Below, in pieces: positions 1 to 38,400 of a DNA stretch of 64,000 nt; the stretch's first letter is position 1, and the number at the start of each line of letters is the position of its first letter. Both the position numbers and the translations under genes were made by a program. Source of the stretch: an uncultured Candidatus Pelagibacter sp. (GTDB taxonomy: Bacteria; Pseudomonadota; Alphaproteobacteria; Pelagibacterales; Pelagibacteraceae); contig CAJWDL010000001.1 in assembly GCA_913030805.1 (NCBI GenBank), positions 1-64,000 on the forward strand. The letters are read 5' to 3'. The notes below the pieces were generated by a model that made no database searches, had not been told where the DNA came from, and saw only the letters and a list, made by a program, of their open reading frames with translations.

Positions 1-295
<295 letters not shown>

Positions 296-302
296 TATGC
301 AC

Positions 303-5585: not shown

Positions 5586-6689
5586 TTACAATTTGCTAAA
5601 TAAATTTTCATAACCCGTGATATTTTTTCTTAAGGTGAATCTTTTAATATTTTTTTTTGCCAATTTTGTTTTCAAATAAAATTCTTTTGAATTATTGTAA
5701 TATTCTTCAATTTTATCTGCCAGATCAAATGAATTTCCATTATTAAATATTGTTCCACATTTTCCATTAAGTAAAATTTCATTTATTCCACCATGACTTT
5801 GAGAACAAATTACTGGTATTCCATGATTTATAGCTTCCACAACAGAATTGGGAAAACCCTCAAAATATGAAGTATTAACATATAAATTGGATAATTTTAA
5901 AATTGGTTTAACATCTTTCAAAAATCCCAAATATTTTATTTTACTGGATATATTTAACTTTTCCGAAAGTTGTTTGAGTTTTAATTTCTCTATTCCATCA
6001 CCAGCAATTAACAATTTATAATTTTTGAAATTTAAGAGACTTAAAGCTTGAAAAAGAACATCCAATCCTTTTTCTTTTGTTAGTCTACACACTGTAACAA
6101 TTACCAAAGTTTTGTTTTTTTTATAAATTTTTTTACTACTTTTTAAAGAATTTACAATCGATGGTGGAAAAATAGTTTTTGCGTTGAGTTTATATTTATT
6201 TTTTAGGTGCTTACTTATATTTGCTGAATTGCAAACAATTGCATCAGATAAATTATATAATAAATAAATTAATGATTTAATAATATTTTTTTTTATAAAA
6301 TCAATAAAACCGAAGTATATGCTTAACTCCATTAGAGGAGTTCTTTCAACTAAAACTATTTTTAAATTATTTAAATTTCTAAGAAAAATTAAAGATAAAA
6401 CGTTTGTGTAATGTATATTGGAGATAAAAATATTTTTTTTATATTTTTTAGAAATTAATAATTTAGTAATATTTAAAACTTTCGACATGGCAAAAAAAGT
6501 TTTATTTGATTTGATTTTGTAAACTTTAATTCCAATTTTCTTAAATTCCTTATCAAAAGGACAATTATTTAGACAAATTATTGAAATATTGAATTTTTTT
6601 TTTGGCAAACCTTTGCATAATCTAAAAATAGAATTACCAGCACCTCCAACTCCAAATTTAGATAAAAAAATGATTAATTTTATTTTCAT
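5586..6689 (-). CDS. family 4 glycosyltransferase
   Basis: A GT-B fold GT4 enzyme of 367 residues from the ATG at 6689 (the frame continues upstream to a TTG at 6701). The N-terminal glycine-rich loop GVGGAGNSIFRLC binds the acceptor side. The C-terminal donor domain shows VTVCRLTKEKGLDVL, a YFEGFPNSVVEAI EX7E-type segment, and a GGINEILLNGKCG loop. The gene is convergent with the 4-epimerase at 4610 with essentially no gap. Its donor sugar is unknown; a UDP-uronate from the neighbouring enzymes is possible but only inferred. Confidence 0.87.
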   Translation of the reverse strand: MKIKLIIFLSKFGVGGAGNSIFRLCKGLPKKKFNISIICLNNCPFDKEFKKIGIKVYKIKSNKTFFAMSKVLNITKLLISKKYKKNIFISNIHYTNVLSLIFLRNLNNLKIVLVERTPLMELSIYFGFIDFIKKNIIKSLIYLLYNLSDAIVCNSANISKHLKNKYKLNAKTIFPPSIVNSLKSSKKIYKKNKTLVIVTVCRLTKEKGLDVLFQALSLLNFKNYKLLIAGDGIEKLKLKQLSEKLNISSKIKYLGFLKDVKPILKLSNLYVNTSYFEGFPNSVVEAINHGIPVICSQSHGGINEILLNGKCGTIFNNGNSFDLADKIEEYYNNSKEFYLKTKLAKKNIKRFTLRKNITGYENLFSKL

Positions 6690-6754
6690 TTTATTGAGCA
6701 AAAAAAATTTAATTCATGCTAAATTAAATTATTTGTACATTATTTAAAAAATTA

Positions 6755-6772
6755 TTCCTAATTTTTTAGGAA
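6755..6772. terminator. candidate bidirectional rho-independent terminator
   Basis: A 7-bp stem with a 4-base loop, TTCCTAA-TTTT-TTAGGAA, followed by a T-rich run on both strands. It lies about 65 bases past the stop codon of the radical-SAM gene at 6838 and upstream of the GT4 gene at 5586. It would separate the radical-SAM cassette from the glycosyltransferase transcript. The stem is A/T-heavy, as expected in this genome, so strength is uncertain. Confidence 0.5.
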
Positions 6773-6837
6773 ATTTTTCTTATAATGATATTTTTAAGAA
6801 TAAATTATTTGCTGTGTATAGACTTTATTAATTAATG

Positions 6838-8508
6838 CTAAGTTTTTGTAGATTTATTTACTAATTTGTTCTTGAAACCAGTTATTTTGCTTTTCCAAGG
6901 TTCAGCAGTATTTAGATTACCTGTTCCTGTTAAAGGTTGTGCCACTTCATTTCTATTTTGCCGCACATTCAACGTTGTAAAATTTCTTACAATATTTTTA
7001 TTCTTTTTAGGTTTTTTCATCCAATCGTCAACTCTTAATGCTCTTCTAGTAGCAAAAAACGCTCGTGGAAATTCTTTAAGTCTTACCCAGAATTCCTGAG
7101 GATCAATCATTGGTATTGAAATTACGGCAAGAAACTTGTGAATAAAGCCGTATTTTAATTTTAAGATTTTTCTAAATAATGGTCTAAGAAATTTTGGGGT
7201 TACCGTATAAACCGGTAAAACTTTAGCAAATTTATAGACATCCTCAATATAAGGAAGGGTTAGCCAACCAGTTGTGTGATAAGAGCCGTGGCCCTGTTTA
7301 ACTTGTTTATAATTTTCCTCGGTCAAATATCCTTTTTTCAGGCAATACTCAGCAAGCTCGGTTTTAGGATAAGGATAAAAAATAAAAGATGGTGTGTAGT
7401 TAGCATCAAGTTTATCATTCAAGTCTAAAGATTTCCACATGTCCTCTGGAGTCTCTTCAGGAAAACCAAAAATATATTCAGCACTAAGCTTCATTCCATA
7501 CTTTTTAATTCTTTGGGCTGCAGCAATAATATCTTCATCAGTATGTTTTCTATGTAACAATTTTGTTCTGATCTTCTCGCTACCAGATTGAACACCCATA
7601 GATATTTTTGTGCATCCTGCCTCACTCAGTAATTTCAAAATTTCTTCCTTAGCAGTTGAGGGAGTAACATTACAATGAAAAGGAAGGTTTACGTGTTTAC
7701 TATATGAGTCTCTAAAATCACGTAGCCACTTAACATTAAAAGCAAAAACATCATCATGGAATCTAATTGATTTAAATTTATGAACTTTTAATAACTCGGT
7801 AATACCATCAATAACATTTTTAACTGATCTTTGTCTTAGATATACCTCGCCTGTATATAAGCTGTTACGAAAACTATTAACACAAAATGTGCACTCGAAG
7901 GGGCATCCCCTAGTTGTCATTATGTTTAGTTGACTAGTTAGAGCCCCATATTTTTCAAAAAGAGATTTGTCTGCCGTAGGAAGAGTGTCCAGAGAACTAA
8001 TTATGGGTCTCTTATTATTTTTATGAATTTTTCCAGAAGCATCTCTAACCCATAAATTCTTAACGTCAGTATATGACTGTTTTTTTTCTAATCGTTGCAA
8101 TAATTCTTCTAATGGTTCCTCACCTTCTCCAATACAAAGAGCATCATAACATTCATCTTTAATAACTTCTTCAGGTATTGAAGTTGGATGAATTCCCCCA
8201 ATAACAATAGGAATATCAAGAACTTTTTTTATCTTCTTTGCAAGCCTGGTTATAGGTAGATAAAGATTGGTAATAGCACTAAAAGCAACCAAATCAGGAT
8301 TAAAACGTACAACTTTTTCTATGACAAGCTTATCGTTGCAAACTATTTTGTTCAAAAAATTGTTTATAAAAGAAATATCTAGGTATCCATTATCTCCAAG
8401 AGCCGGATCATAGATTAGTTCTACTTCATGACCTTTACTTTCTAAGTAAGAGATCAGAGCCTGAACACCAAAGTGCTCGCTTCCACGATAATAAAATAAA
8501 ACTTTCAT
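6838..8508 (-). CDS. radical SAM protein with N-terminal B12-binding-type domain
   Basis: A 556-residue protein from the ATG at 8508. An N-terminal Rossmann-like domain of the cobalamin-binding type (about 1-145, ending in an IGEGEEPLEELL segment) is followed by a radical SAM core with the 4Fe-4S motif C-P-F-E-C-T-F-C near residues 202-209 (TRGCPFECTFC). Downstream are HDDVFAFN, MGVQSGSEKIRTKLLHRK and FGFPEETPEDM, all typical of BchE/Elp3-like cores. The canonical cobalamin motif DxHxxG is not evident, so B12 use is not proven. It is last in a minus-strand cassette with a second such enzyme, a GT2, a SPASM radical SAM and a membrane protein. By eye its codon use is less A+T-extreme than its neighbours. 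Substrate unknown. Confidence 0.88.
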   Translation of the reverse strand: MKVLFYYRGSEHFGVQALISYLESKGHEVELIYDPALGDNGYLDISFINNFLNKIVCNDKLVIEKVVRFNPDLVAFSAITNLYLPITRLAKKIKKVLDIPIVIGGIHPTSIPEEVIKDECYDALCIGEGEEPLEELLQRLEKKQSYTDVKNLWVRDASGKIHKNNKRPIISSLDTLPTADKSLFEKYGALTSQLNIMTTRGCPFECTFCVNSFRNSLYTGEVYLRQRSVKNVIDGITELLKVHKFKSIRFHDDVFAFNVKWLRDFRDSYSKHVNLPFHCNVTPSTAKEEILKLLSEAGCTKISMGVQSGSEKIRTKLLHRKHTDEDIIAAAQRIKKYGMKLSAEYIFGFPEETPEDMWKSLDLNDKLDANYTPSFIFYPYPKTELAEYCLKKGYLTEENYKQVKQGHGSYHTTGWLTLPYIEDVYKFAKVLPVYTVTPKFLRPLFRKILKLKYGFIHKFLAVISIPMIDPQEFWVRLKEFPRAFFATRRALRVDDWMKKPKKNKNIVRNFTTLNVRQNRNEVAQPLTGTGNLNTAEPWKSKITGFKNKLVNKSTKT

Positions 8509-8583
8509 CAAATATCCTTAAGTTTCCTATTAAATCACATGTCAGTTTATTAAACTATATTAAAATAATAGTTCATTTACCGT

Positions 8584-10167
8584 TTATGTCTTGCTTATTA
8601 AGGTTTTGAAGTAACCAAAAAATATAGGGAATTCTTTAATGATATTTCTAAATTTAATTGGACTTAAACGTATTTTATGACAGTAACCAAGATGAAGATA
8701 AAAAAGAAAATGATAAAATCTTGTAAAAGGTAAGCTGCATAAAAAAGGAACAATAAAACGTAGAAACGGAAAATCTACAACTATACCCGCTAATTTTTGT
8801 AAATTCTCAACCATCATTTTTTCTTTTTTTGATTTAAATGTCAGCATCGAGGAATGTTTGTTCGATTCTAAATAAACAGTATTTTTATCCTCTACAAAAT
8901 GTCCCGAAGCTATTGCCATTTTTGCCACAGCAGTACCAGGGAATGGATAAAGCAAACCAAAAGAGGCCATTGTAGGTTTTATTTTCAAGTTTAAATCAAT
9001 TGTGCGTAAATCTACTTCGAATGCGTTATCGACGGGTAATCCCATAATATTAAGGGAAATAATCTTTACACCATATTTATTAAAACATTGAGTTGCTTTA
9101 AGTATGGTATCGTTACCAGTGCCCCGTAAAAAAATCTTATTTGCAGCTTTCTCATCACCACATTCAACTCCCATCCAAACATGCGTTAGTCCAGCTTTTT
9201 TAAGATCTTTAATATCTTGTTCCTTTACTGAACTAGCACGAGCACTACAGTTAAATGGTAGGCCAATTCTTTTTTTATAGAGTTTAGAAAATTCTTTAAT
9301 CCAACCTGGTGGTCTCAGAGTAAAAATATCATCAGTGAATGTTACTGTATCTAAAGGGTAACGTGCTCTTACATCTTCAATTTCTTTTATTACTAGTTCG
9401 GGCGATCTGACTCTTAAGATTTGTCCTAAACCTTTGTAATTATCATTATATTGTTTATTGAAACAATAACTACATTTATAAGGACAACCTCTAGCCGATA
9501 CAAAAGATTTAGTGCCAACAGCAGCTAAATTTGGATCTGCATCATATAGAATTTGTCGATCTGGAAATGGTAACTCATTCAAATCCGAAACTAAATTGCC
9601 TAGTGGATTACGATAAATCTTACCCTTGTGCTTAACGTGAAAAGTTTTGGTTGACGAGTAGTCCTCACCTTTTTCTATTTTTCTAATGAATTCTGGAAAG
9701 CTATTATCTCCTTCCCCCGTACAAATAGCATCGATACCATCTTCTTCGATAACTTGTTTGTTAAAAGTTGGATGAGGTCCGCCCATTACAGAAATAAAGT
9801 CAAAATTATTTTTTAAAATTTTATTAAGTTTCAGTACTTCATAATGTTCGCCAGTCATTACACTATATCCAATTAATTCAGGTCGAAAATCTTTTACAAT
9901 TTTATAAACATTATCGTAAATTTCTGGAACAACAGAATTATTATTATTTTGTGCCGAATCTGTAAATGTAAATGGTTTTCCCTCATAAGCATCTGAGTGT
10001 AGAAGAGACTTTGTTTTATGCGATTGTTTTGATTTTTTGGCAGCAGAAGGGTTCTTTATCATAGCAGCTTTAACTTGGTGACCTTCTTTTTTTAGATTAC
10101 TAGATAGTAGCATAATAGCTGTACGTTCATAAGCTATCATCTCTTTACAAACCAATAGTACTTTCAT
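8584..10167 (-). CDS. radical SAM protein with N-terminal B12-binding-type domain
   Basis: A 527-residue protein with the same architecture as its neighbour at 6838. A B12-binding-type domain spans about 1-165, with a low-complexity insertion at about 40-80 and the motif GGPHPTFN at 129-136. The radical SAM core then shows the cluster ligands C228, C232 and C235 (ARGCPYKCSYC). MGVECGDEKAANKIFLRGT and MGLPVDN follow. The C-terminal region (about 440-527) is basic and aromatic and may associate with membrane or lipid. Such enzymes can methylate or rearrange unactivated carbons of lipids or sugars, but no function can be named here. It is co-directional with the neighbour, 76 bases apart, and shares its less A+T-rich look. 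Confidence 0.88.
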   Translation of the reverse strand: MKVLLVCKEMIAYERTAIMLLSSNLKKEGHQVKAAMIKNPSAAKKSKQSHKTKSLLHSDAYEGKPFTFTDSAQNNNNSVVPEIYDNVYKIVKDFRPELIGYSVMTGEHYEVLKLNKILKNNFDFISVMGGPHPTFNKQVIEEDGIDAICTGEGDNSFPEFIRKIEKGEDYSSTKTFHVKHKGKIYRNPLGNLVSDLNELPFPDRQILYDADPNLAAVGTKSFVSARGCPYKCSYCFNKQYNDNYKGLGQILRVRSPELVIKEIEDVRARYPLDTVTFTDDIFTLRPPGWIKEFSKLYKKRIGLPFNCSARASSVKEQDIKDLKKAGLTHVWMGVECGDEKAANKIFLRGTGNDTILKATQCFNKYGVKIISLNIMGLPVDNAFEVDLRTIDLNLKIKPTMASFGLLYPFPGTAVAKMAIASGHFVEDKNTVYLESNKHSSMLTFKSKKEKMMVENLQKLAGIVVDFPFLRFIVPFLCSLPFTRFYHFLFYLHLGYCHKIRLSPIKFRNIIKEFPIFFGYFKTLISKT

Positions 10168-10235
10168 AATAAATTTATTTATTAAATTATAAAAAAATTA
10201 TTATTAATTAAATCCTCATATAAATTTGAGTAATT

Positions 10236-11240
10236 TCAATATTTCTTTAATCTAAAAATTTGTAAAAAGAAATATATTACCCCTAACAATATACCAATAT
10301 TAATAACTTGAATTCCAAATAACGAAAAAAATAACATTTTTAAACCAAAATGCTTTTTTGCAAAGATTAGAAATTTGTATTCAGCAATCATCTGAAAAAT
10401 AAATAATATCGTTAATCCAAATATAATGAACGATTTATTTAAATTCAAAGAAAATAAAATTAAAACTATAAATAATAATGTCATTAAACAAGAAAAGGCT
10501 TGGCCTGAAGTTGCAAACGAACCGCGTGGATCGAACTTTTTTTTTACTAACAAGATATGAATATATTTTTCTGTCCTATCTATAATTCTTTTAAATCGCG
10601 AATATAAACTTACAAAAAAAGCTTTGTAAGAAGCATTTTTAATCCTAATATTTTTTTTGTTTAATTGATTTATTTTATATCCCAGATAAAATTCTTCTCC
10701 GCCTGCATTTCTTAACGCTTTCCATCCTCCTGCTTGTTTTAATAATTCTTTAGATATTATACAGAAATCTGAAGCACAGGCTTGTAATTCTGTTTCTTTT
10801 TCTATTTCCTCAAGTCCATAACATGATTTTAAACAGACAAAATTAGATGACCAGCTTTCTAAATTAAGATTACTAGTCTCTTGAATTCCTGATACGGAAC
10901 CAACATTTTTATCTTGATATAATCTTTTGACTAAATTTAAAATTGAATTTTTTAATATTATTAAATCAGAATCAATATAACAGAGAACTTTATATCTTGC
11001 TAATCTTGCTCCTAAATTGCGTACATAACCAACACCTTTATTTTTTTTTAATTTAATTAGTTTTATTGTTTTAAATTTTTTTACAATTTCAGATGTTTTA
11101 TCAATACTACCATCATCAATTACAATTATTTCAGATTCAAATTTTTTTGATTCATTGCATATGCTTTTTAAACATTCTTCTATATTTTTTTCAGAATTAT
11201 AAGCAGGAACAATTATTGATATTTTATGCTTATGTTCCAT
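10236..11240 (-). CDS. membrane-anchored family 2 glycosyltransferase
   Basis: A 334-residue GT2 enzyme. The GT-A domain begins with ISIIVPAYNSEKNIEECL, has IVIDDGSIDKT near 40-50 and the metal-binding YIDSDLI near 88-94. The C-terminal third (about 245-330) is strongly hydrophobic with about three membrane helices, so the catalytic domain is tethered to the cytoplasmic face of the inner membrane. It lies inside the radical-SAM cassette, between the B12-type enzyme at 8584 and the SPASM enzyme at 11252, which suggests that the cassette product is glycosylated or that the radical enzymes modify a glycosylated lipid. Confidence 0.87.
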   Translation of the reverse strand: MEHKHKISIIVPAYNSEKNIEECLKSICNESKKFESEIIVIDDGSIDKTSEIVKKFKTIKLIKLKKNKGVGYVRNLGARLARYKVLCYIDSDLIILKNSILNLVKRLYQDKNVGSVSGIQETSNLNLESWSSNFVCLKSCYGLEEIEKETELQACASDFCIISKELLKQAGGWKALRNAGGEEFYLGYKINQLNKKNIRIKNASYKAFFVSLYSRFKRIIDRTEKYIHILLVKKKFDPRGSFATSGQAFSCLMTLLFIVLILFSLNLNKSFIIFGLTILFIFQMIAEYKFLIFAKKHFGLKMLFFSLFGIQVINIGILLGVIYFFLQIFRLKKY

Positions 11241-11251
11241 GACACTTAAAA

Positions 11252-12289
11252 TTATATTAAAGATAGCCAGTGCTTCGCGTCATAGACTGTATTAATTGCA
11301 CATGCACATTCGAATGTGCATGTGCATTTTTTTGCAAATTTACTAAATTCTTTAGCTTTTCTTGATTTAATAATGTCCACAATATCGAGATTACCTTCAT
11401 TTACATTACCAATTTTTGATATACTCCATAATTTTTTGACTTCACAGCCTTTAACGACTCCATCTGGAAGAATTTCCACAAATCTTTCACCCGCTAAACA
11501 TGGTGAATATACTTTGTTGTTATCTATCCTTTTTATTGTTTCTAAATAAATTTTATCAAACAATTTCCCATTAAAACTTTTTTTCCAATTAGCCGATGAT
11601 CTTTTTTGCTGAATTTTTGCAAGTCTTTTATAGTCTTCTCTAAGTTCCAATTGTTCTTTTACAGGAACATCTCTTACTAGTATTAATTCATGAAAATCTA
11701 TGGGCCATGAAGAAGTTTGATTAAAAAAATCTTCTAAAATATGCTTATTATCCTTAGTTATTACCGAAGCTAACCTTAAAAAAAAATTAGGTTGATTTCT
11801 ATAAGTTTTCATTACATCAATTGTTTCTAAAACTTTACTATAAGCTCCTTTAAAATTTCTTACTTTGTCGTGAACTTCTTCGGGCCCATCTAACGAAACT
11901 GATAATGTGAATTCTGTATTCTTATGTTTATTTATTAATTTAGGAATAAAATCTTTAATTCTATCTTTATAAAAACCATTAGTTTTAATGCTAATTCTTG
12001 GGACACCACAATTTTGAATAATGTTGTCAATGATCTCAACAAAATCTTTTCTTATAAATGGTTCTCCTCCAGTTACAGTTAAATGTAATAAACTTTTCGC
12101 TTTTTTAAATATAGAGCCCCATTTTTCCGCTGAAATAGTTGGGGTTTTTCTTGCGTCCATTGCCGCATAACAACAAAAATCGCAGAGCATGTTGCACCTA
12201 CCTTCTATAAATATAATTGAATAATTGGGCACTTGATTTAAAAAAATTGATTTAAATATGCGTGACGCTATGTTAAATTTGTTATTCAT
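11252..12289 (-). CDS. radical SAM/SPASM-type protein
   Basis: About 345 residues from the ATG at 12289; the frame continues 8 codons upstream to a TTG. The radical SAM 4Fe-4S motif is C32-NML-C36-DF-C39 (EGRCNMLCDFC), followed by the SAM-binding TVTGGEPFIR. The C-terminal region is a SPASM-like auxiliary-cluster domain: a SPCLAGERFVEILPDG segment, then GCEV and the cysteine-rich tail KKCTCTFECACA near residues 320-331. Enzymes of this class modify peptides, sugars or enzymes, and many act in cell-surface gene clusters. It is placed just upstream of the GT2 at 10236 and downstream of the membrane protein at 12354. The substrate is unknown. Confidence 0.87.
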   Translation of the reverse strand: MNNKFNIASRIFKSIFLNQVPNYSIIFIEGRCNMLCDFCCYAAMDARKTPTISAEKWGSIFKKAKSLLHLTVTGGEPFIRKDFVEIIDNIIQNCGVPRISIKTNGFYKDRIKDFIPKLINKHKNTEFTLSVSLDGPEEVHDKVRNFKGAYSKVLETIDVMKTYRNQPNFFLRLASVITKDNKHILEDFFNQTSSWPIDFHELILVRDVPVKEQLELREDYKRLAKIQQKRSSANWKKSFNGKLFDKIYLETIKRIDNNKVYSPCLAGERFVEILPDGVVKGCEVKKLWSISKIGNVNEGNLDIVDIIKSRKAKEFSKFAKKCTCTFECACAINTVYDAKHWLSLI

Positions 12290-12353
12290 GCTATTTTTTA
12301 TATTTGATAGCAAAGTATATTCAATAAATTAAATTACAACTACTTTATAAATA

Positions 12354-14207
12354 TTACTCATTTCTAATAGGATTTTTTTTTGAATATAAAATATAAATAT
12401 TTCCATCATGTAATTTAGAGTAATTTTGTCTATTTATGACAATGTTTTTGGTTACAGGCTTTAGTTTTTCTAACGCAATAATTTCTGGTTCTCTAAAATT
12501 TATAAATTTATATTCATTAAATTTTCTTTGTAGCCTGCTAAATTCTTCATTTGGTATTGCCGATTGTTGACTATACATTGGTGAACTTGAGAGAATGAAT
12601 TCTTTTATATTTGGTTCAAAGTTTGTTGAGCCTTTATAAGTATTTAATGAATTTGCCTTATATCTGTAAGAAAAAAAACTACCTACATTAGGATTAAAAA
12701 ATCTCCATCCACTTTTTTTGTTTTTGAAAAAATCCAAAAAATCTTTTTCTTTAAGATTTAGAAATTTAAAATTTTTTACTAAATCATTTTCAATCATATC
12801 GTGTGTTTTAGGTACAAGAAGTCCACTAATTAAATTTAAATATTTGATCTCATTTAATATTGCCCAAACCATTAACTTATTATCAAGCGTTAATAGGGAT
12901 ATATTCTTAGTAAAAATATCTTTTCTATTATTTAATTTGTCCGTGATTTTTTGAAATTCTATTCTTCTATCTTTGTAATTCTGATTATTAAAATGTTGAT
13001 TTTTTTCAAGATAAAAATTTAGATAATAAATACCGATTAACAAAAAAATTAAAGTATTTATTTGTAACGGTTTTAGATTTAATTTTATATAATGTTTAAT
13101 TAATATAATTGAAGAAATAGTAAAAAATATAAAGCCCCAAACAAATATTAGATTATTAAAATTATATACTAATCCTGATCGAGGAGAAATTAGAATGAAA
13201 AAAACAGGAGAAACAATAGTACTTAAAAAGATTATAAAAAATATATTAATTAACTTAACATTGTTAACTTTTTTTTTGTTTGAAAAATAAACAAATAATA
13301 TTGTTAGTAATAATGTTAATAAGAACTTTAGCTTAAAATATTGACTGAAATAATAATCTATCAATTTACCTTTTTTTTCAATGGTAAGGGCAAATGTACC
13401 CATACGTTCTGTTACATCACTTTCATGATAAATTAAATTAATTATAAAAGGTGAAATAGTTATTAAAAAAACAAATATTGAAATTAAAAAATATTTATAA
13501 TTATGAAACAGTTCTTTAATGATTTTGAATTTAAATTTATAAATTAAAAAAAATAAAAAAGCTAAAAATTCAATTGTAAAAAAATAGTAATAGCTGGATA
13601 AAGAAAAACCTAATATTAATCCAAGAGCAGCCATTCTCTTTTTTTCAAAAATTACAGTTTTATCCATAAAAACTAACAAGTATATAAATGAAAAAAAATA
13701 TAGGGATGGTATAAGTGGCCTAGGTATTCTTAATGAATAAAATTCGAGCTGAAACAAATTTAAATATGGAAGACCTTCCAAATTTGTAATTTCTATTATA
13801 GTTGGTATCATAAAAAAAAATAAGCTAAAAAAAATTGATTCATTTTTAGAAAAAAAATAAGAGAAAATTTTATAAAAAATAAGCAAGAAAATAAATATTG
13901 CAAAAAATTCAATAATAATTATTCCAAAGAAACCAAATATTTTAAGAAAAATTGCAGGAAAAATAATTGAAGCATAGGGAATAGGCATTAATTTTAAATT
14001 TTTTACGTAGGGATCTAAAGAATTATTAAGTTCAAAAAAAGCCAAATATTTAATATGTGGATAATAAAAATGACCATCAGCGACACTCTCAAAAATAATC
14101 TTAACAGCTAGACTTTCTTTAAAAAAATAAAATGATAAAACCCATTTAACAGAAAACAGAAGAGTTGTTATTATTAAAATAATATTGGTGGACTTATTTC
14201 GAAACAT
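12354..14207 (-). CDS. large multi-pass membrane protein, probable GT-C type glycosyltransferase
   Basis: A 617-residue protein with about 11-13 predicted membrane helices over residues 1-400 and a soluble C-terminal domain (about 410-617). An acidic/aromatic loop after the first helix contains VADGHFYYPHIKYLAF, the kind of periplasmic Asp/Glu-bearing loop found in GT-C transferases that use polyprenyl-phosphate sugars. No family is recognised with certainty. It is the first gene of the minus-strand radical-SAM cassette and diverges from the methyltransferase at 14339. A role in transferring or polymerising the cassette's product at the periplasmic face is an inference. Confidence 0.72.
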   Translation of the reverse strand: MFRNKSTNIILIITTLLFSVKWVLSFYFFKESLAVKIIFESVADGHFYYPHIKYLAFFELNNSLDPYVKNLKLMPIPYASIIFPAIFLKIFGFFGIIIIEFFAIFIFLLIFYKIFSYFFSKNESIFFSLFFFMIPTIIEITNLEGLPYLNLFQLEFYSLRIPRPLIPSLYFFSFIYLLVFMDKTVIFEKKRMAALGLILGFSLSSYYYFFTIEFLAFLFFLIYKFKFKIIKELFHNYKYFLISIFVFLITISPFIINLIYHESDVTERMGTFALTIEKKGKLIDYYFSQYFKLKFLLTLLLTILFVYFSNKKKVNNVKLINIFFIIFLSTIVSPVFFILISPRSGLVYNFNNLIFVWGFIFFTISSIILIKHYIKLNLKPLQINTLIFLLIGIYYLNFYLEKNQHFNNQNYKDRRIEFQKITDKLNNRKDIFTKNISLLTLDNKLMVWAILNEIKYLNLISGLLVPKTHDMIENDLVKNFKFLNLKEKDFLDFFKNKKSGWRFFNPNVGSFFSYRYKANSLNTYKGSTNFEPNIKEFILSSSPMYSQQSAIPNEEFSRLQRKFNEYKFINFREPEIIALEKLKPVTKNIVINRQNYSKLHDGNIYILYSKKNPIRNE

Positions 14208-14338: not shown

Positions 14339-15562
14339 ATGAAAAATAAATTTTGTAGAAATTGCAAAAACAATAAATTTTTTAACTTGTTGAGTTTAGG
14401 AAAAATAAGTTTTACGGGTAAATTTTCTAAAAGTCTTTTTAATAATATTCCAAAAGCATATCTTAATCTTGTAATGTGTAAAAAATGTAAACTTGTTCAG
14501 CTAGATAGAAACTTTAATCCAAAATATTTATATGGCAAAGACTATGGTTATAGATCGGGTATAAATAAGACAATGACCGAACATTTAAAAAAAACAGTAA
14601 AAAAATGTTCAGCCTTAGCAGGGTTAAAAGCCAATGATCCAGTGTTAGATATTGCTAGTAATGACGGAACATTGTTAAATTTTTATAAAAAAAAAATCGT
14701 TACTGTTGGCGTGGATCCCTTGGTTAACAAATATAAAGGTTATTATAAAAAGATTAGTTATAAAATTTCAAATTTTTTTCAAATTAATGATATCAAAAAA
14801 TTGAATTTAAAAAAAAAATTTAAGATAATTACTTCTTTATCAGTTTTTTATGATCTCAAAGATCCAAATAGATTTATCGAAGGTATTAAAGAATGTTTAG
14901 ATGAAAATGGTATTTTTGTTTTAGAACATGCCGATCTACTTAGTATTATAAAAAATAATTTGTTCGATACCATTTGTCATGAACATCTAGAATATTATTC
15001 TTCGAAAGTCATTATAAATATGATGAACTTTAATGGATTAAAAGTTTTTGATCATGAATTTAACAATATAAATGGTGGCAGTTCCAGATATTATATATGC
15101 CATCGCAAAGCAAAATATAAAATTAAAAAGAAAAAAATCAACAAACTATTATCGGAAGAAAGTAAAATTGGGCTTCATTCAACAAAAATTTTTAAAATAT
15201 TTTTTACAAAAATTTTACACGAAAAAACTAAACTTAAAAAATTAATTAAAGAAATTAATAATAAAAAATTAACTATTCATGGTTATGGAGCCTCAACTAA
15301 AGGTAATGTTCTTTTACAATTTTACGATATTGGAAATAAAGAAGTAAATTATATAGCAGACAGAAACCCCTTAAAATATAATTTGTTTACACCGGGAACA
15401 AAAATAAAAATCATCTCGGAAAATTATTCAAGAAAATTGAAGCCAGATTATTACTTAGTATTACCATGGCATTTTAAAAAAGAGATTTTAATTAGAGAGA
15501 AAAAAATTAGAGAAAAAGGTACAAAATTAATTTTTCCACTTCCAAAAATGCATGTTATTTAA
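14339..15562 (+). CDS. sugar C-methyltransferase-like SAM methyltransferase
   Basis: A 407-residue three-domain protein resembling nucleotide-sugar C-methyltransferases (TylC3/NovU type). The N-terminal zinc-finger-like domain has FCRNC and MCKKC cysteine pairs, the central SAM-binding domain starts at VLDIASNDGTLL, and the C-terminal domain has HGYGASTKGNVLLQF. In the active-site region it has CHEHLEYYS and a SVFYDLKDP segment, unlike the YDEH-containing paralogues at 52082 and 55376, so it belongs to a different subfamily and may use another substrate. Its TAA overlaps the ATG of the GT2 at 15562 (TAATG), indicating an operon running rightward to 21541. Confidence 0.82.
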   Translation: MKNKFCRNCKNNKFFNLLSLGKISFTGKFSKSLFNNIPKAYLNLVMCKKCKLVQLDRNFNPKYLYGKDYGYRSGINKTMTEHLKKTVKKCSALAGLKANDPVLDIASNDGTLLNFYKKKIVTVGVDPLVNKYKGYYKKISYKISNFFQINDIKKLNLKKKFKIITSLSVFYDLKDPNRFIEGIKECLDENGIFVLEHADLLSIIKNNLFDTICHEHLEYYSSKVIINMMNFNGLKVFDHEFNNINGGSSRYYICHRKAKYKIKKKKINKLLSEESKIGLHSTKIFKIFFTKILHEKTKLKKLIKEINNKKLTIHGYGASTKGNVLLQFYDIGNKEVNYIADRNPLKYNLFTPGTKIKIISENYSRKLKPDYYLVLPWHFKKEILIREKKIREKGTKLIFPLPKMHVI

Positions 15563-21753: not shown

Positions 21754-23865
21754 TTATTCCGTTACCAAAATTAATGAGTGTATTTTTATACCTTTCCTTC
21801 TTGTATCTACGCTTTCCAAAAGATCAAATGGTGATTTAGGTTCAATAGCACGAAATTCAACTAAAATAAAATCTTGATTTAAATCTTTAATATCAATACC
21901 TAAAGATTTATTTCTTCTATATTCCTCATTAAAAATAAATTTTTTATGAAAAATTCCATTTACAAAGATTTCTATTTCTTGGGTTTTATTTTTTGGTCTA
22001 ATAAATGCTTCTGTATCGAATATTATTTTAAATTTGTCTATATTTTGTTCGGTTTTAAATACCATGGTTGATCTTTTACCATCCGACCACAAGCTTTGTT
22101 CTGTGTAATCATATGACCATCCAAGTCCAAAAATTGCTATCTTATTGATAAAAGAAAGGTCTTTAAAAATTATTTTTTTATTTTTGGCAATTTTTGAAAT
22201 TTTAATTTTATCAAATTCATTTTTATCATTTTCATTCATCGATGATTTTTGATTCGGTAAAAATAACCAAATTTTATCTCTAAAAACAAAACCAACATTT
22301 TCATTCTTGAATAAAATTTTTAAATGATTGAAATGACCAGGATTGCTGATAATATAAAATTTATTATCCGGTAAGTTTTTTAAATAAAAACCATCGTAGT
22401 TGAAGTATCTTAGGTTAATCAACTTTTGACGATCAAATCTTCCTAGATAAGCAACTTCAGATTTTATGGATGCTTTCTTTAAAAATGCTAATAACTTATA
22501 AAAATCACTAGATTGATTTTTTATTAGAGTAGAACTAACAACTTCATAATCATTTTCTATTTTTTTCCATATTGGATCATCCAAAACTATTTTTTCTTTA
22601 TTGAACGACTTACCATTAACATATTCTTTTAATCCTGCGGAAATATCGACAATTTGTATAACAACTAAAATAGAAAGAAAAAATATACTCTTTTTTTTGT
22701 TAAATGATTTATATATAATTATAATTCCAAGGATTAATATTAAGTAATAACATGGCCAAAAGAATCTCCCTGATACTCTAAAGATACTTGCTATACCGTA
22801 TAAATATTTATTTAATGGGATTTCGAAAAGTAGTTTATCTCCATATTCGACCTTATTTGATAGAGCTATTATAAAAAAAAATACAAAAATTAAAATAATT
22901 GCTCTAAACTTAACAAAATCTAATTTTTTTATGTCTTTCAATAAAATAATAATTGATGAAAAAAATAATAACAAACCTCCTAGGCCTATATAGCCAAAAC
23001 TTTCGTTAGTATCGTGACCTATTTTTATTTTGGGTAGTATCCAGGACCATTTTACTGAACCATCGATATTCGCGCCCGTCGGATTAAATAATGATAACAA
23101 ATTTAATTTATAATAGCCAAATCCATAACCAAGTACATTTTGAAGTGGAAAAGAAAAATAGCCCAAGATATACATTAAAGGTAGTAAAAAAGAAATTGGA
23201 ATTAATAGTTCTTTGATAAAATTAAAAAAATTTTTATTTTTTAACAGTTCATCAAATTTAAATATTGAATACATCAAGTATAACATTACCGTGAAATACA
23301 ATTGTACCAAGCTGGATAAGAGAATTATAAAAATCCAGTAAATTGTCTTTTTATTGTTAACTGTGGTTTGAATATAAAATGAGAGAAGAATGATCCATTG
23401 ACCAAAAAGTGCTATATGTACACTAACCGTATTTATAAATAATGGAGCAGTAATAAAAAAAATACTCCCAATTAATGCATATGCGTCATCTTTGGTGAAT
23501 CTTTTTATTAGCAAATATGAAAGAAAAGATTGCAATAAAAAACATAAAAATATCCAAAGAGAAAAATGATGAAAATTGCCGGGTAAAAGGTTTTTTATTA
23601 GTTTAAAAAAAATTGATAAAAGAGGTATGGATCCTGAATAAATTATTGAACTTCCTTGACCTAATCCATAGTTTGGGTTCAATCCAATGGGAAATCTCCA
23701 AACATCATTAAAAAAATATTTCCATATGATAAAACTTTGAGCAGCATCTCCATGCAACATCCAATCATCAGAAGTTGGTGAAATGTTATTACTTCCTAAA
23801 ATAGCATAAGTTAATAGTAAGCTTGTTAAAGTATATAAAAATCCAATTTTATATATGTTTTTCAT
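21754..23865 (-). CDS. DUF6311-like multi-pass membrane protein with C-terminal soluble domain
   Basis: A 703-residue protein. The N-terminal about 400 residues contain about 10-11 membrane helices. The first periplasmic loop has WRFPIGLNPNYGLGQGSS and GSIPLLSIFF (about 57-82), a pattern I recognise from DUF6311 proteins. Residues about 420-703 look soluble and beta-rich, ending in a sandwich-like region with GWSYDYTEQSLWSDG, possibly a carbohydrate-recognition domain. GT-C fold enzymes commonly have this plan: a membrane catalytic part and a periplasmic C-terminal domain. The gene stands alone on the minus strand between two rightward blocks. Function in glycan assembly is inferred from context. 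Confidence 0.75.
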   Translation of the reverse strand: MKNIYKIGFLYTLTSLLLTYAILGSNNISPTSDDWMLHGDAAQSFIIWKYFFNDVWRFPIGLNPNYGLGQGSSIIYSGSIPLLSIFFKLIKNLLPGNFHHFSLWIFLCFLLQSFLSYLLIKRFTKDDAYALIGSIFFITAPLFINTVSVHIALFGQWIILLSFYIQTTVNNKKTIYWIFIILLSSLVQLYFTVMLYLMYSIFKFDELLKNKNFFNFIKELLIPISFLLPLMYILGYFSFPLQNVLGYGFGYYKLNLLSLFNPTGANIDGSVKWSWILPKIKIGHDTNESFGYIGLGGLLLFFSSIIILLKDIKKLDFVKFRAIILIFVFFFIIALSNKVEYGDKLLFEIPLNKYLYGIASIFRVSGRFFWPCYYLILILGIIIIYKSFNKKKSIFFLSILVVIQIVDISAGLKEYVNGKSFNKEKIVLDDPIWKKIENDYEVVSSTLIKNQSSDFYKLLAFLKKASIKSEVAYLGRFDRQKLINLRYFNYDGFYLKNLPDNKFYIISNPGHFNHLKILFKNENVGFVFRDKIWLFLPNQKSSMNENDKNEFDKIKISKIAKNKKIIFKDLSFINKIAIFGLGWSYDYTEQSLWSDGKRSTMVFKTEQNIDKFKIIFDTEAFIRPKNKTQEIEIFVNGIFHKKFIFNEEYRRNKSLGIDIKDLNQDFILVEFRAIEPKSPFDLLESVDTRRKGIKIHSLILVTE

Positions 23866-38280: not shown

Positions 38281-38400
38281 TAGCCTGGTGATTATTGCGA
38301 AGGGGTAATACCCGATCCCATTCCGAACTCGGAAGTCAAGCCCTTCAGCGCCGATGGTACTTTGTCTTAAGACACGGAAGAGTAGGTCGTCGCCAGGCTA
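38281..38400 (+). rRNA. rrf: 5S ribosomal RNA, detached from 23S
   Basis: About 120 bases. The terminal stem TAGCCTGG pairs perfectly with CCAGGCTA. The conserved internal segments CCCGATCCCATTCCGAACTCGG and GCGCCGATGGTACT are present, as is the GTAGGTCGTCGCCAGG 3' part. It is therefore a full, probably functional 5S gene, located about 38 kb downstream of 23S rather than directly after it. Confidence 0.96.

Follow-up and report, generated by a model that had tools for sequence, protein, structure and literature searches.

Radical SAM enzymes and a membrane glycosyltransferase in hypervariable region 2 of a SAR11 bacterium: a candidate glycan-tailoring cassette

Radical S-adenosylmethionine (SAM) enzymes acting on sugars are known from the tailoring of aminoglycosides, with AprD4 (1,2-diol dehydration), GenK and BtrN/HygY as enzyme types. 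A SPASM enzyme and a glycosyltransferase of family 2 (GT2) occur together in the mycofactocin system (MftC and MftF, respectively, with the GMC oxidoreductase MftG), and TsrM, MgmA, OxsB, CysS and TokK are cobalamin-dependent radical SAM methylases. In the formation of bacteriohopanetetrol cyclitol ether, the glycosyltransferase HpnI acts before HpnK and HpnJ; the last step, from glycolipid glucosamine to the cyclitol ether, is carried out by HpnJ, a B12-domain radical SAM enzyme (PMC12583986). For SAR11 bacteria, a polysaccharide island bounded by 23S and 5S rRNA, hypervariable region 2 (HVR2), has been described (PMC2217521). The present report concerns a group of genes within such an island, in a window of 64,000 nucleotides (contig CAJWDL010000001.1, positions 1 to 64,000, assembly GCA_913030805.1) from an uncultured Candidatus Pelagibacter sp. 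The genes encode a SPASM-like radical SAM protein, a membrane-anchored GT2 (GT2m) and two B12-domain radical SAM proteins (B12rSAM1 and B12rSAM2). The favoured explanation, to which a probability of about 0.45 is given, is that they form a four-gene glycan-tailoring cassette which was swapped into HVR2 and acts by the mechanism proposed below. This reading is based on the HVR2 setting, the pairing, fusion and co-evolution of SPASM and GT2 proteins, the recurrence of B12-domain radical SAM neighbours, the supply of vitamin B12 and the fold of B12rSAM1.

A preliminary description of this DNA had proposed a unit of five genes, the fifth encoding a GT-C-like membrane protein. Five adjacent open reading frames were indeed found, intact and uninterrupted, on the minus strand at 6838–14207, with gaps of 40, 11, 68 and 72 bp (Table 1). 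They are not chance reading frames, since all five are kept in order in the congener SAR11 AAA288-G21 (G004; genomes and loci are cited by their numbers in the analysis) at identities of 94% for the membrane protein, 94% for the SPASM-like protein, 93% for GT2m, 94% for B12rSAM2 and 85% for B12rSAM1. AAA288-G21, a member of the deep-water SAR11 subclade Ic, and AG-464-P07 are the closest named relatives of the source genome (G000). The real starts of the SPASM-like and B12rSAM1 genes are probably ATG codons a few codons inside the TTG starts, at 12292 and 8508, respectively. Pfam bore out the preliminary assignments of the radical SAM proteins and of the GT2, which has about three C-terminal transmembrane segments. 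Both B12rSAM proteins contain PF02310 followed by PF04055, each over the cut-off, and all three radical enzymes retain the CxxxCxxC motif (CPFECTFC and CPYKCSYC in the two B12rSAM proteins). The proposed five-gene unit had to be abandoned: the 617-aa membrane protein is present without the radical SAM genes in three relatives (G001, G003, G007), and it is thus a core protein of HVR2 in the window's genus, not specific for the cassette. The swappable cassette therefore consists of four genes, at 6838–12313. In G001, other genes, for an acetyltransferase, a PIG-L deacetylase and a methyltransferase, occupy the slot that separates the membrane protein from a GT4 glycosyltransferase; G002 has a relative of B12rSAM1 (71%), and its contig ends inside the region. 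The complete four-gene cassette was found only in G000 and G004.

The best-supported part of the cassette is the pair of SPASM-like protein and GT2. A profile search yielded strong homologues of the SPASM-like protein across SAR11 and few in other Alphaproteobacteria; five of 385 alphaproteobacterial genomes, including the source genome, contained one at E ≤ 1e-45. A GT2 adjoins or is fused to the SPASM gene in 29 of 30 loci (28 by a local scan and L091 by Pfam). There are four fusions of about 690 aa (L037 from AG-343-M11, L098, L147 and L167), in all of which the GT2 and Radical_SAM domains both exceed the Pfam cut-off. Pairwise distances of SPASM proteins and of their GT2 partners are correlated (r = 0.81, Mantel p = 1e-4, n = 25). 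From sequence comparisons, a conserved functional unit of SPASM protein and membrane GT2, marked by fusion and co-evolution, is thus supported. Eight cysteines are invariant in 29–30 homologues, three in the radical SAM motif and five auxiliary ones in the C-terminal domain. The canonical SPASM domain has seven cysteines in the pattern Cx9-15Gx4C ... Cx2Cx5Cx3C ... C. The first half is matched by C272-x12-G-x4-C290; the second half, C330-x-C332-x3-C336 (CxCx3C), departs from it, and the protein would therefore best be called SPASM-like. Its radical SAM domain is clear (PF04055), the SPASM match is marginal (PF13186, 22.1 bits against a cut-off of 21.5), and the homologues score at or slightly under this cut-off.

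Neighbouring genes give some indication of a substrate. In L037 (3236–7961) and L147 (6068–10831) the fusion has a gene of UbiA type and one for a GMC oxidoreductase beside it, and L103, L143 and L141 each contain a PMT_2-matching gene at the pair or close to it (two over the cut-off, one slightly under). The UbiA-type and PMT_2 neighbours suggest a polyprenyl-phosphate-linked sugar. The UbiA gene of L147 resembles a decaprenyl-phosphate phosphoribosyltransferase, with a score below the cut-off, and the neighbourhood of the L037 and L147 fusions is reminiscent of decaprenyl-phosphoryl-sugar pathways. In L096 (G006, 10555–12396) the immediate neighbour of a SPASM-GT2 pair is a carbamoyltransferase of the NodU/CmcH type. 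Another pair is contained in L166, an IMG/VR contig of 7.7 kb which is catalogued as viral and may be a host fragment; apart from this one, viral contigs held no relatives of the SPASM-like protein and none of B12rSAM2, known phages gave distant matches only, and carriage by phages was rejected.

B12rSAM1 and B12rSAM2 are about 30% identical and fall into one supported clade (SH-aLRT, an approximate likelihood ratio test, 99; quick tree method), which takes in proteins from Aegiribacteria, Smithella and Nitrospinota and stands apart from HpnJ. An AlphaFold model of B12rSAM1 (predicted local distance difference test, pLDDT, 81) was matched by Foldseek to TsrM, MgmA, AprD4, OxsB, CysS and TokK. 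Most of its chain follows the two-domain fold of the methylases among these, although identities in the structural alignments are 14–18% and the substrate classes differ. B12-domain radical SAM genes are also found next to SPASM genes in three other lineages: in L169 (G329, another alphaproteobacterial family) SPASM, GT2 and B12-domain radical SAM genes are consecutive, and in L037 and L171 the SPASM gene adjoins one of the latter. These three proteins belong to a different clade from B12rSAM1 and B12rSAM2. Outside the cassette, at about 124 kb on contig C2 of the source genome (L095:9189–10022), a protein of 277 aa is encoded which contains a B12-binding domain but lacks a radical SAM domain; it may be a remnant. 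In L227 (G642) and L228 (G271), from other Alphaproteobacteria, a GT2 gene and one of asparagine-synthase type are found in the vicinity of a B12-domain radical SAM gene.

Cobalamin uptake was considered by a survey of PF02310 proteins in 147 sampled genomes of the SAR11 family. Such proteins were present in 45 of these, with seven in the source genome; each of the five genomes in the window's genus possessed them, but only two of 53 near-complete genomes. A BtuB-like receptor was distributed in nearly the same way. Among the 118 genomes common to both surveys, as matched by their numbers, a B12-domain protein and a BtuB-like receptor occurred together in 26, the former alone in 11, the latter alone in 3 and neither in 78 (Fisher p = 2e-14, in a test which takes no account of relatedness or incompleteness of the genomes). 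In the source genome an adenosylcobalamin (AdoCbl)-II riboswitch (67.2 bits; gathering threshold 36.5), a BtuB-like TonB receptor and a DUF6580 gene are located outside the window but on its contig (C1), at about 83044–85185 (L199:7044–9185); the riboswitch lies about 120 nt upstream of the receptor (about 83.3–85.2 kb) and DUF6580 downstream. Relatives also carry this combination. The receptor scores 182.3 bits with TIGR01779 (BtuB), under the cut-off of 599.7, and this is nonetheless its best-scoring NCBIfam family. Of 19 receptor loci that were scanned, 16, including that of the source genome, have the same riboswitch ahead of the receptor, and it was not found at those of G016, G010 and G098. 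In six loci (L202, L204, L206, L209, L210, L216) the riboswitch-btuB unit has a B12-domain radical SAM gene directly next to it, and three of these (L206, L209, L216) also contain 5S rRNA, the border of HVR2. In L205 (G026, 6597–10633) the riboswitch, the gene for the BtuB-like receptor and a small membrane gene are followed, on one strand, by such a B12-domain gene, which may thus itself be under riboswitch control.

Neither MetH nor MetE nor the split methionine synthase is present in SAR11 bacteria (PMC12478193), and no MetH over the cut-off was detected in the 147 genomes, the source genome included. From co-occurrence and adjacency with the riboswitch-btuB unit, together with the absence of MetH, cobalamin use by B12-domain radical SAM enzymes would appear to be the simplest reason for the importer; the survey covered proteins with PF02310, a domain which other cobalamin enzymes, e.g., NrdJ and QueG, lack. 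B12 regulation of SAR11 btuB was stated as not known (PMC9296465); the upstream riboswitches suggest that btuB is B12-regulated in these clades. A wider proposal must be regarded as tentative: in some SAR11, the vitamin B12 taken up by a BtuB-like receptor under riboswitch control may have no part in methionine synthesis and may instead serve B12-dependent radical SAM enzymes which tailor surface glycans or lipids, with SPASM-GT2 as a new radical SAM-glycosyltransferase system.

In the proposed mechanism, GT2m would attach a sugar to an acceptor held in the membrane, probably polyprenyl-phosphate or a lipid-linked glycan. The SPASM-like enzyme, as its dedicated partner, would abstract a hydrogen from the sugar, followed by oxidation or epimerisation, and its auxiliary Fe-S cluster would accept the electron. 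B12rSAM1, B12rSAM2 or both may methylate the glycan or lipid at an unactivated carbon, using cobalamin as methyl carrier, or may otherwise rework the glycan. The neighbouring membrane protein, if it is a GT-C enzyme, or else other transferases of the island could then hand on the modified unit. Cobalamin would be supplied by the riboswitch-controlled importer. Substrate, order of reactions and product are inferred here; gene content, gene pairing, fusion, co-evolution and the association of riboswitch and importer are read from the genomes.

Several observations weigh against this explanation. None of the five proteins passed an NCBIfam equivalog cut-off, and no substrate or product is assigned to them; the preliminary description had named no described counterpart of the exact set. 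Since AprD4, a top fold match of B12rSAM1, is a sugar dehydratase, a B12-type fold does not prove methylation. A SPASM-B12rSAM association is recurrent and not general, because no SPASM gene adjoins the B12-domain gene in five further alphaproteobacterial loci of the second clade; moreover, most SPASM-GT2 loci have no B12-domain radical SAM gene nearby. A copy of B12rSAM2 (82–83%) stands alone in G145, of another SAR11 genus, outside any glycan island (L140, 9350–10936, among dacA, tmk, holB and metG and adjoining dacA). The G+C contents of B12rSAM1 (33%) and B12rSAM2 (32%) exceed the 21–24% of most neighbours; some conserved enzymes of the window also have about 30%, and the values are consistent with acquisition. 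The two proteins may thus be recent arrivals with unrelated roles. The limits of the Fisher test and the low receptor score, given above, belong here as well. Taken together with the confinement of the complete set to two genomes and the other genes in the same slot of G001, these distributions could mean that no pathway is shared, and that independent tailoring genes gathered in a hypervariable island, with SPASM-GT2 as one unit and each B12-domain enzyme as another. Such a gathering is considered rather improbable, as the four genes are co-directional, have short gaps and are conserved at 85–94% in the congener, and as the neighbourhood of SPASM, with or without GT2, and B12-domain genes recurs in three other lineages. 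B12rSAM1 and B12rSAM2 probably came separately from the SPASM-GT2 pair, and the two parts are separable. Co-occurrence elsewhere, which the preliminary description had named as a check, gave a mixed outcome: it was found almost always for SPASM-GT2 and, with a different B12 clade, in the three lineages, and the exact five-gene set is nearly private to G000 and G004.

The B12-domain enzymes might instead rearrange or dehydrate a sugar in the manner of HpnJ or AprD4, with no methylation, and GT2m would take the role of HpnI in building the glycolipid substrate. The HpnI-HpnK-HpnJ pathway is a precedent for a glycosyltransferase-built glycolipid sugar remodelled by a B12-domain radical SAM enzyme (PMC12583986), and among NCBIfam families HpnJ ranks first for B12rSAM2 and third for B12rSAM1. 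AprD4 is also the best sequence match of B12rSAM1 among solved structures. Membership of either family was rejected: HpnJ scores (TIGR03471) were 118.4 bits for B12rSAM1 and 112.8 for B12rSAM2 against a cut-off of 577.6, with a separate clade in the quick tree, and AprD4 scores (NF033070) were 49.5 and 62.5 against 500. HpnIJK lacks a SPASM enzyme, whereas the cassette has one and showed neither an HpnK-like gene nor another deacetylase partner. Aminoglycoside enzymes share radical SAM chemistry on sugars but act on soluble antibiotics; in the present case a membrane GT2, encoded in a surface-glycan island, is the partner. In addition, the riboswitch-BtuB link favours true cobalamin use in this group, and rearrangement or dehydration alone is judged unlikely. 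A system for ribosomally synthesised and post-translationally modified peptides, in which the SPASM enzyme matures a peptide that GT2 and the B12-domain enzymes modify further, is the least likely of all and highly improbable. The best solved-structure match and many NCBIfam matches of the SPASM-like protein are peptide maturases, and mycofactocin offers a precedent of SPASM enzyme with GT2, to which some fusion loci add a GMC oxidoreductase. The mycofactocin models were far from their cut-offs (MftC 43 bits against 265, MftF 57 against 280), and the gaps of the cassette contain no precursor-peptide-like frame. The stretch ahead of the radical SAM core is only about 33 aa long, little space for a peptide-recognition domain, and a membrane GT2 as fusion partner and the polysaccharide island also speak against a peptide. 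Three radical enzymes with a membrane GT2 are present in HVR2, and tailoring of an envelope glycan or glycolipid, as suggested by the preliminary description, is likely. That description was partly supported: it pointed the right way but drew the boundaries wrongly.

The surface-glycan island assumed there corresponds to HVR2: polysaccharide genes lie between 23S and 5S rRNA in the window, as described in PMC2217521, and include many GT2, GT4, NDP-sugar and Wzy genes. A radical SAM cassette is present here; none is mentioned in the passages of that paper which were consulted. The position of the GT4 gene to the left is kept in G004 and G002, and in G001 the gene adjoins the replacement genes. 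The divergent sugar C-methyltransferase gene adjoins the 617-aa membrane protein in G004, G002 and G007. For the latter protein, no match was obtained in Pfam or NCBIfam, nor in a profile comparison with three other multi-transmembrane proteins, and an AlphaFold model from a two-sequence alignment (pLDDT 37.5) was unusable and was not used; GT-C is accordingly kept as a candidate label. The same island encodes a DUF6311 membrane protein of 703 aa at 21754–23865, with no function assigned.

Table 1. Features of the cassette and its surroundings in the window
Feature	Position	Strand	Size (aa)	Evidence and remarks
23S rRNA 3' end	1..297	+		Rfam RF02541, 291.9 bits; left border of HVR2
GT4 glycosyltransferase	5586..6701	-		PF00534; downstream, left border of swappable cassette
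B12rSAM1	6838..8511	-	557	PF02310 59.6 bits, PF04055 78.5 bits
B12rSAM2	8584..10167	-	527	PF02310 41.6 bits, PF04055 73.6 bits
GT2m	10236..11240	-		PF00535 107.8 bits; DSD motif; about 3 C-terminal transmembrane segments
Radical SAM/SPASM-like protein	11252..12313	-	353	PF04055 59.1 bits, PF13186 22.1 bits
Multi-transmembrane protein, candidate GT-C	12354..14207	-	617	No Pfam or NCBIfam match
Sugar C-methyltransferase (Methyltransf_13/14)	14339..15562	+		PF08484 156 bits; divergent core neighbour
5S rRNA	38284..38398	+		Rfam RF00001, 97 bits; right border of HVR2

The families to which the genes belong are known ones; the unit of SPASM and GT2 and the link of SAR11 to B12 appear to be undescribed, as no description of either was found in the open-licence papers searched. 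A SPASM-like radical SAM protein that co-evolves with, and is at times fused to, a membrane glycosyltransferase would thus mark a functional unit new to that literature. For marine AdoCbl-variant riboswitches (RF01689) the source was given only as "Marine" when they were described (PMC2864571), and SAR11 would be a host for some of them. The B12 link would offer a testable reason why some SAR11, which have neither MetH, MetE nor a split methionine synthase, take up vitamin B12.

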